Assembly (NCBI GenBank): GCA_004294495.1
Contig: REAS01000049.1
Location: 1 to 33,808, forward strand
Origin: Sphingobacteriales bacterium
Lineage (GTDB): Bacteria > Bacteroidota > Bacteroidia > Sphingobacteriales > Sphingobacteriaceae
Length of the DNA stretch: 33,808 bases
Direction: 5' to 3'
In this document: positions 2,522 to 28,955 of the stretch, in pieces
How the letters are laid out: the number at the start of each line of letters is the position of its first letter
How positions within the stretch are numbered: the first letter of the stretch is position 1
Program-made: the position numbers and the translations under genes
The notes under the pieces: model-generated
What the model was told of the DNA's origin: nothing
The model's database searches: none
What the model saw: the letters and a program-made list of their open reading frames with translations, nothing else

Positions 2522-3811
2522 ATGCCATTATTAGTTTATACACCAACACTTAGCCCACGCAAAATCTATATTTTTAACCATATTTTGGTTAGCATATTAG
2601 GCATTGAATATAATTTTACCCATAACCAGCAAGTTTTTTTAGATTTTAAAGGTGCGAAATTAAACTATTCGGGTTTGCCTTGCGGCGATGAATTGTATAT
2701 AGAACAACATCCTTTTATAGATGAGAATACTATTAACCAACAACATTTTAATTTTGCAATAAAAGATGATTTCCAAGTGCCTTTTGCAGTAAAAACCGGG
2801 TTTTTTAGTTTCGATATGTTTTCGGCAGCATTTTATTTATTAAGCCGTTACGAAGAATATTTACCAAGCACAAAAGATACCCACGGCCGTTACCAAGCCG
2901 AAAACAGTGTTGCTTTTACGCACAATTTTTTACAAAAACCAGTTATAGATATTTGGGCTTATAATTTATTAGCGCAACTTAAACTGCGTTTTCCCGATTT
3001 AAAATCCGTTAAAAGAAAATTTACATTTACCCCAACAATTGATATTGATAACCCATATTATTTAAAAACCGAAACCACTAAAAACAAAAGCATTAAAATA
3101 ATTAAAGCACTTTTAAAAGGTAATTTTAGCATTTTAAAACACGACCCGTTTGATACTTACAAATACCTAAAAAACCTGCATCAACACTATAAATTAGAGC
3201 CAATATTTTTCTTTTTGGTGGGCAACAAACATATTTACGATAGCGCACCAAATTTATACGATTACCAAAGTTTGTATAAAAAGCTGATACAGTCAATTGC
3301 CACTTATGCGAATTTGGGTATTCATCCATCATACCAATCGAACCAAAATGTTGCTATTTTGACCGCCGAAATAGGTGTTTTAAAATCCGCATTAAGCGAT
3401 AAAAAAATTGAAATATCGAGACAACATTTTTTAAAATTAGATTTTCCAGAAACGTATAACAACCTAATTTTACAAAACATAAAACACGATTATACAATGG
3501 GTTATGCTACACACACGGGTTTTAGGGCGAGTACTTGTACGCCTTTTTATTGGTACAATTTACACACCGAAAGTGTTACCAATTTATATATACACCCTTT
3601 TGCAGTTATGGACCAAACCTTAAAAAAATATTTAGGATTAAATAAAACTGAAGCTATTGCGAATACCCAAAAACTAATTGATGAGGTAAAAAAAGTGAAC
3701 GGCAATTTTATAACTTTATGGCATAACGAAACTTTAAGTAATTTTGGCACTTGGAAGGGTTGGCAAAAGGTTTACCAACAAACGTTAGCATACGCAACAA
3801 AACAAATTTAA
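2522..3811 (+). CDS. DUF7033 / polysaccharide-deacetylase-like protein
   Basis: A 429-residue protein common in Bacteroidota. Residues about 1-150 form the DUF7033-type N-terminal domain (LVYTPTLSPRKIYIFNHIL, SAAFYLLSRYEEYLP). The remainder resembles a NodB-fold polysaccharide deacetylase: TIDID (172-176) sits where the metal-binding Asp pair would be, LGIHPSY (265-271) where a metal-binding His motif would be, and GFRASTCTPFYWY corresponds to the later conserved Arg/Pro region; a C-terminal LWHNE follows. No signal peptide is evident. The actual substrate is unknown; these genes are often near envelope or glycan genes. The ATG at 2522 is chosen because an upstream ATG at 2503 is out of frame. 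Likely transcribed alone or with the following gene. Confidence 0.7.
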   Translation: MPLLVYTPTLSPRKIYIFNHILVSILGIEYNFTHNQQVFLDFKGAKLNYSGLPCGDELYIEQHPFIDENTINQQHFNFAIKDDFQVPFAVKTGFFSFDMFSAAFYLLSRYEEYLPSTKDTHGRYQAENSVAFTHNFLQKPVIDIWAYNLLAQLKLRFPDLKSVKRKFTFTPTIDIDNPYYLKTETTKNKSIKIIKALLKGNFSILKHDPFDTYKYLKNLHQHYKLEPIFFFLVGNKHIYDSAPNLYDYQSLYKKLIQSIATYANLGIHPSYQSNQNVAILTAEIGVLKSALSDKKIEISRQHFLKLDFPETYNNLILQNIKHDYTMGYATHTGFRASTCTPFYWYNLHTESVTNLYIHPFAVMDQTLKKYLGLNKTEAIANTQKLIDEVKKVNGNFITLWHNETLSNFGTWKGWQKVYQQTLAYATKQI

Positions 3812-22439: not shown

Positions 22440-23126
22440 TTATGGTGTAAATTTATAACCTAACCCTCTAACCGTTTGTAAAAATTCCGATTCTTCAACA
22501 TCGCCATCTAATTTTTTTCGCAATCTAACAATATGCATATCTAAGGTTCGTGTGTTAACATTTGCTTCGTAACCCCAAATTTCCATCATTAAATCTTCTC
22601 TGCTAACAGTTTCGTTTATGTGGTTAAAAAAGTAAATAAGTATGCGGTTTTCTAAAATGGTTAGTTCTATTTTTTCATCGCCTTTATAAACAGTGTGCGT
22701 ATTTGGGTGGTGTACCATATTACCAAACTTAAGTGGCTCAATTTTTTCGGCACTATGAAAATATTTAATTTTATTATCTAACATAGCTATTAAAACATCC
22801 ATGCTAAAAGGCTTCGTTATATAATCTGAAACCCCAAAATTGTAGGCAATTATTTTATCCAAATCTTGAGCTTTCGCAGTCATCATTATCACAATGTTTT
22901 CGAAACCCTTGGCTCTTAATGCAGTGCAAATTTGCGAACCGTCTTTGCCAGGAAGCATCCAATCTAGTAAAACTAAATCGGGTTGTTCGTTTAATATTAA
23001 CTCTTCGGCTAAATTACCATCACTTGTTTGTATAACAGTAAAGCCTTCGTTATTTAAACGATGAGTAATTAAAAACCTAAGGTTTTCATCGTCTTCAATT
23101 ATTGCAATTTTAATTTTTTTTTTCAT
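22440..23126 (-). CDS. OmpR/PhoB-family response regulator
   Basis: A 228-residue two-domain regulator. Receiver: acidic pair D12/D13 (IIEDDENL), phosphoacceptor D55 in LVLLDWMLPG, Thr in MTAKAQD and the Lys in YITKPFS. C-terminal winged helix: SREDLMMEIWGYEANVNTRTLDMHIVRLRKKL and the RGLGYKF end. It starts 2 nt after the histidine kinase gene and is the third gene of the operon with the S9-like lipoprotein. Regulon unknown. Confidence 0.95.
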   Translation of the reverse strand: MKKKIKIAIIEDDENLRFLITHRLNNEGFTVIQTSDGNLAEELILNEQPDLVLLDWMLPGKDGSQICTALRAKGFENIVIMMTAKAQDLDKIIAYNFGVSDYITKPFSMDVLIAMLDNKIKYFHSAEKIEPLKFGNMVHHPNTHTVYKGDEKIELTILENRILIYFFNHINETVSREDLMMEIWGYEANVNTRTLDMHIVRLRKKLDGDVEESEFLQTVRGLGYKFTP

Positions 23127-23128
23127 TA

Positions 23129-24802
23129 TTATAATGGATTTTGAGGTAAAATAATTTCAAAAATAGAACCTTTATCAATTTTACTTGTAACATTTATGCT
23201 TCCGTTCATAAAAACCACCAGTTCTTTGCAAAAAGCTAAGCCTAAACCTACGCTACCTTGCTGATTATATTGGTTTTGTATTCTATAAAATTTCTTAAAT
23301 ATATTTGTAAGCTCGTTCGTTTTTATGCCTATTCCTTTGTCGGAAAAATAAAAATGAATGTTTTTACGCATACTAACTATTTTAATCGTTAAAAATTTAT
23401 TGCCGGGCGATGAGTATTTGTAAGCATTATCCATTAAATTTTGAAAAATACTATTTAAGAAAACAGGATCTGAATAAAATATAGGAATTTTTGAAATTTC
23501 TAATTCAATTTCATAATCAGCATATTTTAACTGAAATGAGTCTACAATATTTTGAGCAAATATTTCTAGGTTTATTTTCTCGTATTTAATTTTAATTGAT
23601 TTTGTTTCTAGTTGAGTAAACGAAAGTAACTTATTCATTAAATTATTTAGCTTATCGGCTTCTTCATCTAATATTTTTCCGTAATGATTTTTTTCGTAAG
23701 TGCTTAATTCTATTGCGCTTTTAATATTGTTACCTGCTATTTTAATTACCGCAACGGGTGTTTTAAATTCGTGAGTAAAATTATTTATAAAATCGTACTG
23801 CAATTTAAATAGCTTGTGGTTTGTGTTTAAGTTTCGGAATAATAAAAAAGTTATAAACGAGAGTATTAAATAAACAACGATAATTGAGATAGCAATAGGA
23901 AAAAAACGGTTGTTAACTTCTTTACTAATAAAATTTCGTTCGCTAGCGAAATATAATTTATAATCGGCAAAAGCACCCGACATGTTCAAATTTGTTGTGA
24001 GTAAATTAGACTGTTTGTAAACAGGGTCGTACGATATTCTTCTAAGACTAATAAATTGGTAAAGTTCGGGATGGGTGTTTATTATTGGGATATTAAAAGG
24101 GTTTAACTCAAATGATAACACATCTTGGTCGTATAATGGGGCTTTTATCTGTTTATTAATCATTAACTCTTTATATACTAATAAATCATCGGGACGTGGT
24201 ATTCCCATAAATGTTATGCGATTGTTTGATACGTTAAAAAAAGTTTTATAAATAACATCAGACGCCAGGCTTTTTACACTATCCGTTTTTTCTATTAAAT
24301 GGCAAAACCGTAACGCAATTTTATTAAAATCATCGCTTTTATCTAAAGTATAACCATCCTGCTCATTGTTTTTAAATATTAATTGAGATTCTTGATTAAC
24401 GTTTTTTCTAAATCTGTATAACTTTTTAATTCCTACAGATAAATTACCATATTTAAACCCGTTGTTAATTTGTTGGTTACTAATTTCAGAGTCGTAAAAC
24501 GTTATTTGGTTTACAAAAGCGTATTTATTTAAAATATTATTTGCGTAGGCAGATGCAGAAGAAGAATCTAAATATCCTTGATAGTAGGAGATTTGCGGAA
24601 TTTCATACTGAAATAAATTATTATATGGCTCAAAAGATTTTTCCATTACTTCAATTTTTAGAGACGAAAATTCGCTTTCTACATACTTGCGAGCTAAATT
24701 AAATCCCAAAAATAAAGCAAAAATTAATGAAATAGATATAAGCACCAAAAAACACACAATTAATATGAAATTTTTTTTATAGTTGCTAGGGGCTGATAAC
24801 AT
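23129..24802 (-). CDS. Sensor histidine kinase, two-transmembrane, large periplasmic domain
   Basis: A 557-residue kinase. Helix 1 is about 11-34, helix 2 about 301-322, leaving a periplasmic domain of roughly 265 residues with no recognisable Pfam-type motif. Then the phosphoacceptor H344 in FINNFTHEFKTPVAVIK, N-box FQNLMDNAYKYS (453-464), D488 in SDKGIGI, FKKFYR and GLGLAFCKELV. Translation starts 3 nt after the stop of the pseudo-peptidase gene, and the regulator follows 2 nt later. The periplasmic domain, beside a lipoprotein partner, suggests sensing of an envelope signal. Confidence 0.94.
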   Translation of the reverse strand: MLSAPSNYKKNFILIVCFLVLISISLIFALFLGFNLARKYVESEFSSLKIEVMEKSFEPYNNLFQYEIPQISYYQGYLDSSSASAYANNILNKYAFVNQITFYDSEISNQQINNGFKYGNLSVGIKKLYRFRKNVNQESQLIFKNNEQDGYTLDKSDDFNKIALRFCHLIEKTDSVKSLASDVIYKTFFNVSNNRITFMGIPRPDDLLVYKELMINKQIKAPLYDQDVLSFELNPFNIPIINTHPELYQFISLRRISYDPVYKQSNLLTTNLNMSGAFADYKLYFASERNFISKEVNNRFFPIAISIIVVYLILSFITFLLFRNLNTNHKLFKLQYDFINNFTHEFKTPVAVIKIAGNNIKSAIELSTYEKNHYGKILDEEADKLNNLMNKLLSFTQLETKSIKIKYEKINLEIFAQNIVDSFQLKYADYEIELEISKIPIFYSDPVFLNSIFQNLMDNAYKYSSPGNKFLTIKIVSMRKNIHFYFSDKGIGIKTNELTNIFKKFYRIQNQYNQQGSVGLGLAFCKELVVFMNGSINVTSKIDKGSIFEIILPQNPL

Positions 24803-24805
24803 GGA

Positions 24806-26656
24806 TTAATTCAAATTTTGTTTCAAAAATATATCAAGATTATTATACAATTCAATTATATTTTTATGATTGCTATAAGTGTGCCCTTCTGTATCTTTTA
24901 GTAAATAACGAACCTTTACGTTGTTTTTTCGCAAGTCTTTTACAAACTGATTGGTTTCGTTTACGCTAACTAATTTATCTTTTGCTCCCTGCACAATATA
25001 TAAAGGGTTTTTAAATTTATTAATGTTAAATATCGGCGAAATTTGTTGGAAACTTTTAGTATTTTTTTGAGGGTTACCAACGGTTTTAGTAAGCAGTTGT
25101 TGATATGGCTTTCTATAATGCGAAAAATCTTTTAAATAGGTAAATAAATTATTTATGCCCGAGTATGATGCAGCACAACAATACAATTGAGGATGGTTAA
25201 ATGCGCTATTTAACGCCAAAAATCCCCCAAAACCAAAACCATAAATGGCAGTTTTTTCAGGGTCGGCAATTCTATTTTCTATTAGCCATTTAGTGCCATC
25301 TTCTATATCGTTAAGTATGTATTTAGTGCCTTTATTTAACCCGGCTTGTTTAAATGCTTTGCCGTATCCTCCCGATCCACGATAATTAATTTGCAAAACG
25401 GCATACCCTCTATTTGCCAAAAACTGCACTTCTGGTACAAAAGCCCATACATCGTTATCAAATTGTTGGCTATGTGGCAAAACAACACACTCCATATTGT
25501 ATTTTTTGTTTTTTGGCAAAGTTAAATAACCATTAATGTTTAAACCATCACGGCTAATATATTTTATGGGTTTCATTTCACAAAAATCAGTTTCGGGTAT
25601 GCTATTGTTACCCGATATTTTTGTTATTGTTTTTGTTGTATTATTAAACACATAAAAAATATCGGGTTGCCTATCGCTACAATTTTTTACTAAAAAAGTA
25701 TTTCCCGAAATATCGTTTTGTAATATCTCTAAATTTATTAAACTAAACTTATTTTTAATTTGGTTGTATATTGTTTCAAATTGGGTATCTAAACAAATAA
25801 TTTTCTTTTTTTCGGCAGCTAAATTTACTGCGGTAGGGTAAGTATTATTAAAATTTACACTAACAATATCGGTATTGGTTTTTATAATTTTAGTTTTAAA
25901 CCCGCTTGCGCAGTTTACCATAATAAGGGCTGTTTTATCGGTATTTAAATTTGATAAGGCATAAAAACCATTATTGGCTTTATTAAAACTTAAAGGCACC
26001 ATAGTATTCAAAAAATCACTTTCGGCTACCAATTTAAAATGGGTTTTATAAGTGTCTCTAAACAAAATACTTTCTGTTACGCCATCGCTTGCAATAGCTA
26101 ATCTAACCCTACCCAAATTATCGGCCTTCCATTTAATAATATTACCAGGGTTTAAAGCAATAAGTTTTTGATGCCAATTGTTTATGTTTACTTGATAAGC
26201 GTTTTGATTTATTGATTTTGATTTTATCGCAAGCAATAAAAATTTATTATACCAAAGTTTACTAGATATAAAATCTATTTTTTTTGCTTGTATAGTTTTA
26301 ATGTTTCCTGTTCCATCGGTATTTACGTAAAACAGCCCTTCGCCAAATTGGTTACTTAACACATAAAAAATAGTCTGGTTATTTGCCCAAAAATACGCCT
26401 TAATTTGGCCTCCTTTAAACTTTGTTATTTGGCGGGTAGTTCCTTTATTTATTTCTATTAAGAAAATATTGGATACATTGTTTTGATTTTGTACATAGGA
26501 AGCATATAAACCATCGGGCGATATTTGGTAACTTAATTTTTGAGAGTTGCTAAAAAAATAGGAAGTTGGTATTAAGTTGTTATTTGCATTTTGGTTGCAA
26601 CCTATAAGAACAAAAAAAATACAACAAACTAAAATTTGTTTAATTATGCCCAACAT
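24806..26656 (-). CDS. S9-peptidase-like lipoprotein lacking the catalytic serine (pseudo-peptidase)
   Basis: 616 residues from the ATG at 26656. A longer frame begins with TTG at 26689, but that overlaps a -7-like box, and the ATG gives a clean lipoprotein signal with lipobox LIGC (Cys20). Residues about 40-360 look like a beta-propeller with TolB/DPP4-type repeats (YQISPDGLYASYVQ, WANNQTIFYVLSN). Residues 365-610 are an S9 alpha/beta-hydrolase domain (FLANRGYAVLQINYRGSGGYG). The nucleophile motif GxSxGG reads GFGFGG (473-478), Gly replacing Ser, and the PHGGP element reads PHSQQ. Asp560 (GAKDKLV) and His592 (EGHTYS) are kept. It heads an operon with a histidine kinase and response regulator. 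Confidence 0.85.
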   Translation of the reverse strand: MLGIIKQILVCCIFFVLIGCNQNANNNLIPTSYFFSNSQKLSYQISPDGLYASYVQNQNNVSNIFLIEINKGTTRQITKFKGGQIKAYFWANNQTIFYVLSNQFGEGLFYVNTDGTGNIKTIQAKKIDFISSKLWYNKFLLLAIKSKSINQNAYQVNINNWHQKLIALNPGNIIKWKADNLGRVRLAIASDGVTESILFRDTYKTHFKLVAESDFLNTMVPLSFNKANNGFYALSNLNTDKTALIMVNCASGFKTKIIKTNTDIVSVNFNNTYPTAVNLAAEKKKIICLDTQFETIYNQIKNKFSLINLEILQNDISGNTFLVKNCSDRQPDIFYVFNNTTKTITKISGNNSIPETDFCEMKPIKYISRDGLNINGYLTLPKNKKYNMECVVLPHSQQFDNDVWAFVPEVQFLANRGYAVLQINYRGSGGYGKAFKQAGLNKGTKYILNDIEDGTKWLIENRIADPEKTAIYGFGFGGFLALNSAFNHPQLYCCAASYSGINNLFTYLKDFSHYRKPYQQLLTKTVGNPQKNTKSFQQISPIFNINKFKNPLYIVQGAKDKLVSVNETNQFVKDLRKNNVKVRYLLKDTEGHTYSNHKNIIELYNNLDIFLKQNLN

Positions 26657-26686
26657 TTTTGCTTTATTATTAACTGATTTTTTGTA

Positions 26687-26694
26687 CAAATTAA
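26687..26694 (-). promoter_or_regulatory. -7-like element for the pseudo-peptidase/two-component operon
   Basis: Minus-strand TTAATTTG resembles TAnnTTTG with one mismatch and lies 30 nt before the chosen ATG. Weak. Confidence 0.3.
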
Positions 26695-26709
26695 ATTAAA
26701 TTTTTGTGT

Positions 26710-26738
26710 TTTGCGCTATAAACTACACAATATATTTG
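26710..26738 (+). promoter_or_regulatory. Promoter for the TPR protein
   Basis: TTTG (26710-26713) and TATATTTG (26731-26738), 17 nt apart, agree with the Bacteroidota consensus; the ATG is 70 nt downstream. Confidence 0.5.
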
Positions 26739-26808
26739 TTAACGATATTTACACTTTTATAATTATACTTTAAAAGCGGCGTATTATATAAATTAGCCAA
26801 TAAAAATT

Positions 26809-28611
26809 ATGTTAAAAAAAATCTCCTTTTTTATAGTTTTAAGTTTAATAACGCTATTGGCTAGCGGCCAGCAAAATGATATTGAACTTGCCGAGTCGTT
26901 ATCAAAAAACGGAGAATACAGCCAAGCTATAACTATTTATAAAAACCTAACTAACACAACTATTGATAAAACTTGGTATTATGCCGATTATTTAAACTGT
27001 TTACTAAAAACCAAAAACTACAACGAGGCCGAAAAACTGGTAAATAAAACTATTAAAGCCAATGCGAATCAAAATATATATTTTTTAGATTTAGGGTACG
27101 TGTACGAACAAAAAGGCGATAACGAAAAAGCAAACAAAATTTACGATAAAACAATTAATAACTTACCTGCCGATGATATTGCCGTAACAGATTTTTCTTC
27201 CCATTTTTATAATCTCCAAAACTACAATTATGCATTAAAAACATATTTGCAAGCCCGCAAAGTTTTTAAAAACAACGGTTTATATGCTTTAGAAATTTTA
27301 AATATTTTAAAGATTACAAAAAACAATCCTGCTTTAATATCCGAAATTTTAACTTTACTAAGCAGCAATAACGAATATTTAGGCTTTGCAAAAAATAGCC
27401 TTTCGCAAACCTTAGAAACCACAGCCGATTTTACTTTACTTAAATTAGAATTATTAAAGGCAATACAAAAACAACCAGATAATAACAGCTTTGCACAATT
27501 ACTTGCTTGGCATTACCTACAACAAAAAAATTTTACCGCCGCTCTTACGCAAACTATTGCCTTAGATAAACGTGAGAAACAAAACGGTGCCCAAGTGTTT
27601 GAGCTGGGCAATATTTTTACCCAAAATAAAGATTACGAAACCGCAAATTTGGCCTATCAATATATATTACAAAAAGGCGAAAGTAACCCGTATTACATTA
27701 ATGCATTAATTGAAAACCTTAGCAATAAAAAACAACTACTTACCGAAGGAAAATTTTTAATGCCCGATTTATTATTGCTTGAGCAAGATTACACATCGAT
27801 ATTAACCAAATATGGCAAAAACTATCAAACCTTATTTGCAATAACACAACTGGCAAACTTGCAAGCATTTTATTTAAATAAACCTAGCCAAGCTCAAGTA
27901 CTTTTAGAGAACGCCTTAAAATTAACCAATATTGGGCAAAAAAATTTAGGCGAGTTAAAATTGCAGTTAGCCAACATTTATTTAGTTAATAACCAAGTAT
28001 GGGATGCGGCTTTGCTGTACAGCCAAGTTGAAAAAACCTTTACTAACGAACCATTAGGGCAAGAAGCTAAACTAAGAAATGCAAAACTTTCGTTTTATAA
28101 TGGCGATTTTAAATGGGCAAAAAGCCAGTTAGATGTATTAAAAGCTTCTACATCGCAATTTATAGCAAACGATGCACTAGATTTAAGTTTATTAATTCAA
28201 AATAATTTAACAGCCGATAGCACTGGTAAGGCGCTAAAAATTTATGCTTCGGCAAGTTTGTTACTTTTAAAAAACGATTTAGAAGGGTCGCTATTAACGT
28301 TAGATAGCATAAATTTACTTTACCCAAAAAACGAACTAGAAAATGATATATCACTAACTAAAGCAAAAATATTTATACAACAAAGCAAATTTGCCGAAGC
28401 CGCCTTACAATACCAAAGTATAATAAACCAAACAGAAAGTATGTATGCAGATGATGCCTTGTTTTTATTAGCCCAATTACAAGAGCAAAAACTTAATTTA
28501 CCTAAACAAGCACTAGAAAATTACCAAAAGCTACTAAACAATTACCCCGGTAGCCCTTACATTACTGAAACTCGAGAAAGATTTAGAGCCTTGCGAGGCG
28601 ATGCTTTATAA
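26809..28611 (+). CDS. Exported TPR-repeat protein
   Basis: A 600-residue secreted or outer-membrane-associated protein. Signal peptide: KK, hydrophobic core to about residue 19, predicted cleavage after ASG before QQNDIE. Many tetratricopeptide units run from about residue 25 to the end (examples: SKNGEYSQAITIYKNL, YVYEQKGDNEKANKIYDKTI, LQEQKLNLPKQALENYQKLL), and the end NNYPGSPYITETRERFRALRG is common in Bacteroidota tetratricopeptide proteins, resembling the TPR gliding/BamD-like class. It likely acts as a periplasmic scaffold; partner unknown. Divergent from the pseudo-peptidase operon. Confidence 0.85.
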   Translation: MLKKISFFIVLSLITLLASGQQNDIELAESLSKNGEYSQAITIYKNLTNTTIDKTWYYADYLNCLLKTKNYNEAEKLVNKTIKANANQNIYFLDLGYVYEQKGDNEKANKIYDKTINNLPADDIAVTDFSSHFYNLQNYNYALKTYLQARKVFKNNGLYALEILNILKITKNNPALISEILTLLSSNNEYLGFAKNSLSQTLETTADFTLLKLELLKAIQKQPDNNSFAQLLAWHYLQQKNFTAALTQTIALDKREKQNGAQVFELGNIFTQNKDYETANLAYQYILQKGESNPYYINALIENLSNKKQLLTEGKFLMPDLLLLEQDYTSILTKYGKNYQTLFAITQLANLQAFYLNKPSQAQVLLENALKLTNIGQKNLGELKLQLANIYLVNNQVWDAALLYSQVEKTFTNEPLGQEAKLRNAKLSFYNGDFKWAKSQLDVLKASTSQFIANDALDLSLLIQNNLTADSTGKALKIYASASLLLLKNDLEGSLLTLDSINLLYPKNELENDISLTKAKIFIQQSKFAEAALQYQSIINQTESMYADDALFLLAQLQEQKLNLPKQALENYQKLLNNYPGSPYITETRERFRALRGDAL

Positions 28612-28642
28612 TTGCATTTATTTACCTTTAAACCTATATTTG
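28612..28642 (+). promoter_or_regulatory. Promoter placed for a leaderless DUF4286 transcript
   Basis: TTG (28612-28614) and TATATTTG (28635-28642) are 20 nt apart. The ATG begins at 28647, only 4 nt after the -7 box, so the transcript may begin at or beside the start codon. Confidence 0.55.
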
Positions 28643-28646
28643 CGGT

Positions 28647-28955
28647 ATGATTGTTTTTAACGTAACCACAATAATTGAAGAAAGCATACAAGCCGAGTAT
28701 TTAACTTTTATGCAACAAGAACACATGCCCCTAGTAATGGCAACGGGTGCTTTTACAAGCAGCAACCTTTTTTTATTAACCGAACCTGTTAACGAAGGCA
28801 TAACTTATTGCGCACAATATATAACCGATAGCGAAGAAAAACTTGAAAATTACCGCCTAAATCAATCGCCAAGTTTACAAGAACATTTTAAAAATAAATT
28901 CGACGGAAAATATGTGGCTTTTAGAAGTGTGTTGCATTTAATAGACCCCGTTTAA
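28647..28955 (+). CDS. DUF4286 family protein
   Basis: A 102-residue protein with the DUF4286 pattern: MIVFNVTTIIEESIQAEYLTFMQQEHMP, then a ferredoxin-like alternating fold, KFDGKYVAFRSVLHLI at the end. Function of the family is unknown. Preceded by a promoter that suggests a leaderless mRNA and followed by a bidirectional terminator shared with the tRNA. Confidence 0.8.
   Translation: MIVFNVTTIIEESIQAEYLTFMQQEHMPLVMATGAFTSSNLFLLTEPVNEGITYCAQYITDSEEKLENYRLNQSPSLQEHFKNKFDGKYVAFRSVLHLIDPV

Follow-up and report, generated by a model that had tools for sequence, protein, structure and literature searches.

A recurrent S9-fold pseudo-peptidase lipoprotein is encoded with a sensor histidine kinase and a response regulator in Sphingobacteriaceae

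Accessory lipoproteins that are encoded together with a histidine kinase (HK) and a response regulator (RR) are already known. In QseEGF, the lipoprotein QseG, the kinase QseE and the regulator QseF are co-transcribed, and QseG binds and activates the HK, according to the cited part of PMC12691602. MtrAB-LpqB of Actinobacteria is described, in the cited section of PMC5487470, as an operon in which a two-component system (TCS) is accompanied by a lipoprotein that acts as a modulator of the HK. An S9 fold with a Ser to Gly change that acts as a non-catalytic partner is likewise already known in animals. DPP10 carries this change and modulates Kv4 channels, as described in the cited section of PMC4350108. 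Its motif is GKGYGG, the orthologues of the DPP family include active and inactive members, and fly DPP10 is both an active enzyme and an auxiliary protein (cited sections of PMC4350108 and PMC4873792). In humans, DPP10 and DPP6 are S9B proteins without activity that act as auxiliary subunits of Kv4 channels. Within the portion of the open-licence full-text literature that was covered, no account of an S9 protein beside a kinase was found.

Here we analyzed a stretch of 33,808 nucleotides from a Sphingobacteriales bacterium, hereafter the window, in which an S9-like lipoprotein gene precedes an HK gene and an RR gene. Its relevant features are as follows.

24806–26656, minus strand: gene for an S9-fold lipoprotein without the catalytic Ser (beta-propeller plus alpha/beta hydrolase), lipobox Cys20
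25232–25234, minus strand: Gly475, codon GGT, where family alignments have the catalytic Ser
24977–24979, minus strand: Asp560 of the former triad, kept, from family alignments
24881–24883, minus strand: His592 of the former triad, kept, from family alignments
23129–24802, minus strand: sensor HK of 557 aa, with a transmembrane (TM) segment, a periplasmic part, a second TM segment, HisKA and HATPase_c (TM segments placed by eye)
23897–24697, minus strand: periplasmic domain of the HK, 267 aa (residues 36–302, bounds set by hand)
22440–23126, minus strand: OmpR/PhoB-type RR
26657–26808, no strand: divergent intergenic region of 152 nt, where many relatives have a conserved 17–19 nt element that is unrecognisable in the window

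The S9-like gene lies in an open reading frame at 24806–26689 on the minus strand, whose ATG form (24806–26656) encodes 616 aa. The protein has a signal peptide with the lipobox Cys20, followed by the beta-propeller and then the alpha/beta hydrolase. In a Pfam scan, hydrolase families were the sole families reported, with a Peptidase_S9 match (PF00326) of 143.1 bits (cut-off 22.6). An intact S9 fold was modelled with AF2 (pLDDT 89.4) and backed by Foldseek. The closest solved structure, by sequence and by fold, was 5l8s_A, a cold-adapted acylaminoacyl peptidase (phmmer E 1.7e-32; Foldseek E 9.6e-37, TM 0.77/0.79). By homology and fold, the window protein belongs to the S9 prolyl oligopeptidase family.

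The initial annotation had described a lipoprotein without its nucleophile, in which Asp and His are kept, and alignment with S9 homologues bore this out. The expected GxSxGG reads GFGFGG and the HGGP element reads HSQQ. In phmmer comparisons, GFGFGG aligns with the motif that holds the nucleophile in PDB 5l8s and 8wt1; 5l8s has Ser there, whereas the window protein has Gly475. Of the residues of an active S9 peptidase, Asp560 and His592 are present and the Ser of GxSxGG is absent; as in DPP6/DPP10-type proteins, the nucleophile is lost with the fold conserved. The window genome (192 contigs, 92% complete) has a single gene of the GFGFGG S9 type. Beyond it, the genome has two S9 matches, L002 and L003, which are distantly related (identities of 24 and 27%, over partial length) and keep the motif Ser.

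We also looked for an acidic export signal after the lipoprotein Cys, following the definition in the cited part of PMC5080379. Two adjacent acids were present in just 7 of 94 rows; the scan was crude and assigned the wrong Cys in several cases, the window row included. The lipobox and the lack of a consistent acidic export signal suggest that the S9-like lipoprotein probably faces the periplasm, where the kinase sensor sits.

The distances in the initial annotation agree with the coordinates: 3 nt separate the S9 stop from the HK start, and 2 nt the HK stop from the RR start. The kinase periplasmic domain, put there at about 265 residues, measures about 267 aa. For the window's copy of this domain, we found no Pfam family at E <= 0.1 and no related sequence in the PDB at E <= 1. 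Its model had no Foldseek match at E <= 0.001, with a faint double-CACHE resemblance at E 0.027 (TM 0.30). A PhoB/PhoR or RprY identity of the pair was rejected, as the NCBIfam equivalog cut-offs were not reached: the RR scored 192 versus 296.2 bits for PhoB and 126.3 versus 370 bits for RprY, and the HK 137.9 versus 334.2 bits for PhoR (TIGR02966).

The trio is a trait of the family, of which we searched 399 genomes. An S9 orthologue was found in 387 (window protein as query, E <= 1e-60), and the HK periplasmic domain in 394 (profile search). All 5 genomes that lack the HK also lack S9, which is missing from 12 in total, and no genome with S9 at this threshold lacks the HK. These 12 comprise 2 contig breaks (G175, G284), 5 genomes with the kinase alone, and 5 without both genes (G025, G026, G081, G103 and G115; completeness 76, 71, 76, 100 and 83%). 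G103, of genus g44, is thus scored as complete and has neither the kinase nor the S9 orthologue. Of 395 genomes drawn from the class, the HK periplasmic profile matched 15, all in the window's family, and the 20 listed among the 380 non-matches are all from other families. In a draw of 121 genomes from the order, all of the window's family, it was found in 120. The best 80 of 287 named S9 relatives are mostly Pedobacter, Daejeonella, Parapedobacter and Arcticibacter, which we take to be members of Sphingobacteriaceae, and unnamed Sphingobacteriaceae, with one Flavihumibacter.

We then read the regions around 117 places, picked to cover genera rather than at random, of which 106 hold both S9 and HK. 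In all 106, the two genes share a strand and S9 immediately precedes HK. The gap, based on gene starts estimated from alignments, lies between −4 and 43 nt in 104 of them (the exceptions being 189 nt in L089 and 500 nt in the broken L115). The RR follows the HK in 105 loci, and L138 stops at the contig end. S9 also immediately precedes the kinase in each of the 80 named loci, many of which are from the same genomes as the 106. We infer that S9, HK and RR are co-transcribed, and they form one conserved cluster of a lipoprotein, an HK and an RR, of the QseEGF and MtrAB-LpqB type. Six S9 relatives in the regions read have no such kinase alongside: L063 and L072 are second copies in G021 and G030, and L068–L071 are outside the family (the contig of L070 is short). 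A divergent TPR protein and a DUF4286 protein (window 26809–28955) are conserved operon neighbours in many genera. In genus g11, HK-RR occurs with S9 absent (5 genomes; 4 regions read), and the TPR gene is just 80–96 nt from the kinase in the 3 regions with this gene in view. The four g11 regions (L100–L103), from genomes of about 2 Mb, represent a natural S9 knock-out with HK and RR retained.

Among 107 kinase-linked S9 proteins, including that of the window, the nucleophile column was readable in 106. It holds Ser in 25, Gly in 71, Arg in 7, Glu in 2 and Asn in 1. All 25 proteins with Ser have His and none has Ser without His; 12 Ser-less proteins, the window protein among them, keep His, and 69 have lost both. 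Asp is kept in 104. Of the 80 named loci, 21 have Ser, all with His, and His is kept in 12 of the 59 that are Ser-less; Pedobacter cryophilus, P. puniceum and Daejeonella lutea are in the Ser state, and P. arcticus, P. caeni and P. steynii in the Gly state. The S9 relatives not beside a kinase keep Ser, Asp and His in 6 of 6 cases. The three nearest tree relatives of the window have Glu (L033, L049) and Gly (L048), none having Ser, and Ser, Gly, Glu and Arg are all present in the window's own genus.

The association between Ser and His gave a Fisher p of 1.5e-15 with kinship ignored. Once kinship was counted, using well-supported branches, the coupling rests on 8 independent pairs, of which a mean of 4.9 went the same way, 0 the opposite way and 3.1 showed no difference (median p 0.0625). 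His592 was the most relaxed of 587 sites in the Ser-less proteins, with an entropy difference of 3.62 (next, 2.42), in a comparison of 79 Ser-less with 24 Ser-bearing proteins >580 aa in which the Ser-less set is broader and its entropies are higher overall.

On an HK+RR tree of 111 rows, obtained by a quick search and with a few long branches of unsure placement, the Ser state requires 12 undirected changes. If Ser was never regained, the tree requires 14 losses, or 12, 11, 8 and 7 after collapsing branches with support <80, 90, 95 and 99. This implies that the active-site Ser would have been lost 7 to 14 separate times, provided there was no regain. A path for regain exists, in that a single step leads from a Gly (GGY) to a Ser (AGY) codon, but revertants would need His retained throughout. 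The dN/dS values were 0.010–0.149 for close Ser-less pairs (18 pairs with a finite value) and 0.017–0.083 for close Ser-bearing pairs (12 pairs), many further pairs being saturated in dS. Dead S9 copies remain under purifying selection. Repeated Ser loss together with low dN/dS indicates that catalysis was given up and the protein mostly retained.

The window S9 is a real, recurrent, family-wide pseudo-peptidase within a three-gene sensory unit, and the data suggest that it has taken on a new role in assisting the sensor kinase. Our best reading, which we hold with somewhat more belief than doubt, is that the lipoprotein descends from an active S9 peptidase and would join HK and RR as the third component of a sensing unit in Sphingobacteriaceae, serving there as a non-catalytic kinase accessory. 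In the mechanism that appears likely from gene context and analogy, the propeller/pocket module would bind the HK periplasmic domain and modulate the HK, perhaps once a peptide or some other ligand from the envelope occupies the pocket. Ser-bearing orthologues would then be enzyme and partner, and Ser-less ones partner only. The tight trio, the fact that S9 was not found without HK, and the analogues QseG, LpqB and DPP10 all suggest that S9 may contact the kinase.

How closely do these analogues correspond? QseEGF, as far as described above, has its lipoprotein, HK and RR in one gene set, as does S9-HK-RR. It differs in belonging to Pseudomonadota and in that lipoprotein-HK binding is direct there and putative for S9; to our knowledge, QseG is not an S9 protein. 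MtrAB-LpqB has the gene order mtrAB-lpqB instead of S9-HK-RR, and we know of no evidence that LpqB is a peptidase homologue. DPP10/DPP6, in the features covered by the sources above, share with the window protein the S9 propeller and hydrolase fold, the Ser to Gly change and the membrane tether. They differ in being animal type II membrane proteins that pair with an ion channel instead of a sensor kinase. The initial annotation had regarded inactive S9 co-sensors as a novel arrangement, a claim that we trimmed, as accessory TCS lipoproteins and DPP10 are known. The nucleophile loss and the TCS linkage in its interpretation stand, joined now by purifying selection, and the protein may be the peptide-binding or signal-presenting kinase partner that it proposed.

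A bolder form, for which our credence falls a little short of even, would make this protein a bacterial counterpart of DPP10: a family-wide S9 co-receptor of the HK, converted 7 to 14 times independently to a pure co-receptor with the unit intact. If so, active and dead versions of one co-receptor could be compared side by side. The trio is a replicated natural experiment on the change from enzyme to signalling partner, with many separate nucleophile losses in one family, and it points to a kinase sensor domain that is near-universal in the family and has no close Pfam or PDB relative.

The main rival, which we regard as unlikely, is that S9 is output and not input: a periplasmic effector that binds peptides, or degrades them in the species with Ser, co-expressed with and controlled by the TCS with no kinase contact. 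Genus g11 speaks for it, keeping the HK and a constrained periplasmic domain without S9. The g11 domain is not relaxed, with a stem peri/cyt branch ratio of 0.66 of the mean. Across 76 genomes, branch-rate covariation between the S9 propeller and the HK periplasmic domain, given the kinase core and RR, had a Spearman value of 0.46 versus 0.40 for the TPR neighbour, and the same-pair partial correlation with all partners in the model was 0.28 versus 0.14 for the TPR gene. This covariation is weak and does not discriminate from the neighbour control. The constrained sensor of g11 and the control-level covariation argue against an obligatory role of S9; both would be compatible with S9 as a modulator or as an output.

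The promoter region also bears on this rival. AATGTTAC was found upstream of S9 in 41 of 111 regions (1.2 expected), and TGTATTTTAAATGTTAC, at >=14 of 17 positions, in 54 of 106 (1.2 expected). The distance of TGTATTTTAAATGTTAC to the S9 start is 65–240 nt, except for 396 nt in L047, where the gene is broken, and 34 nt in L048, where the match looks accidental. Clade variants, read from the same rows, lie 69–91 nt from the S9 start: GGGTAAAATTRTRGTGACA in 18 of 20 rows of g15 (L089 and L112 differ), TGTAAAAWTARRGTTGCA in 11 of 12 rows of g17 (L111 differs) and TGTAAAATTAAGGTTGCA in 6 of 6 rows of g4. The TGTA and TGTTAC of the element are 11 nt apart, a spacing that resembles PhoB-type direct repeats, and the RR may bind the element. 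No TPR gene was found in the g17 and g4 regions read, and the element is still there; therefore, it belongs to the S9 operon and not to TPR. In the window intergenic region, the best match to the operon element, 12 of 17, is at chance level. A scan for sigma-70-type promoters was also at chance level (27 found versus 26.8 expected).

In 30 genomes, TGTAYTYTAAWTGTTAC with one mismatch had 47 sites, versus 29 for the same pattern reversed as a control. Judged by position, the S9 promoter accounts for 26 of the 47, the region before a Pedobacter outer-membrane barrel for 10 and scattered places for 11 (10 inspected); barrel-side sites occur in 7 of 8 g14 genomes. There are 22 exact sites, 21 belonging to the S9 promoter (that of G092 judged from the kinase position) and 1 to the barrel. 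The barrels behind the element are 916–948 aa long, and the three scanned are CarboxypepD_reg plus OMP_b-brl_3, adjoining gcvH (Pfam in L274). Among Pedobacter L269–L275, three genomes have two tandem barrel copies, each with its own element site. In 38 genomes of other genera, GTAAAAWTRDRGTKRCA had 39 sites in 34 genomes, whereas the control had 5. Position assigns 33 of the 39 to the S9 promoter; the remaining 6 lie in other places, none of them at the barrel. So far, the barrel as a second target is confined to Pedobacter.

The near confinement of the element to the S9 operon hints at autoregulation in relatives, and this, like the barrel of OMP_b-brl_3 type behind the same element, favours an output role. 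However, no genome has S9 (E <= 1e-60) without HK, the S9-HK order holds in every locus read that has both genes, with gaps of at most 43 nt in 104 of 106, and a protein retained purely for peptide cutting should not outlast so many Ser losses.

It is improbable that the S9 gene is simply decaying, with catalysis dispensable and the protein being lost. S9 is cleanly absent from g11, and three linked S9 genes are damaged, two with broken frames (L047 in G013, L115 in G166) and one with an in-frame propeller deletion (L048 in G016); HK and RR are present beside all three. These damaged copies also count against the kinase-accessory reading, as does the modest Ser-His coupling once kinship is counted. 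Yet no internal stop codon occurs among the S9 matches listed, relaxation is greatest at the former active site, and the Ser-less dN/dS values are far below 1 and broadly within the Ser-bearing range, which disfavours pseudogene decay as the main account.

Still less probable is that catalysis persists by another route, making "pseudo-peptidase" the wrong term. The modelled fold is intact and Asp560 is nearly always kept, but GFGFGG in the window holds no Ser, Cys or Thr, and His is also lost in 69 of 81 Ser-less proteins. A sequence error or a strain-specific mutation, conceivable from the 192-contig assembly and from the 25 of 106 operon homologues that keep Ser, is ruled out by the other 81, which lack Ser in the same gene order and include proteins of single-contig genomes such as G002, G352 and G366, by the lack of Ser in the three nearest tree relatives, and by the recurrence of the loss.

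Elsewhere in the window, 2522–3811 encodes a protein distantly related to the VimE deacetylase model (190.5 bits, against a cut-off of 440) and carrying DUF7033.
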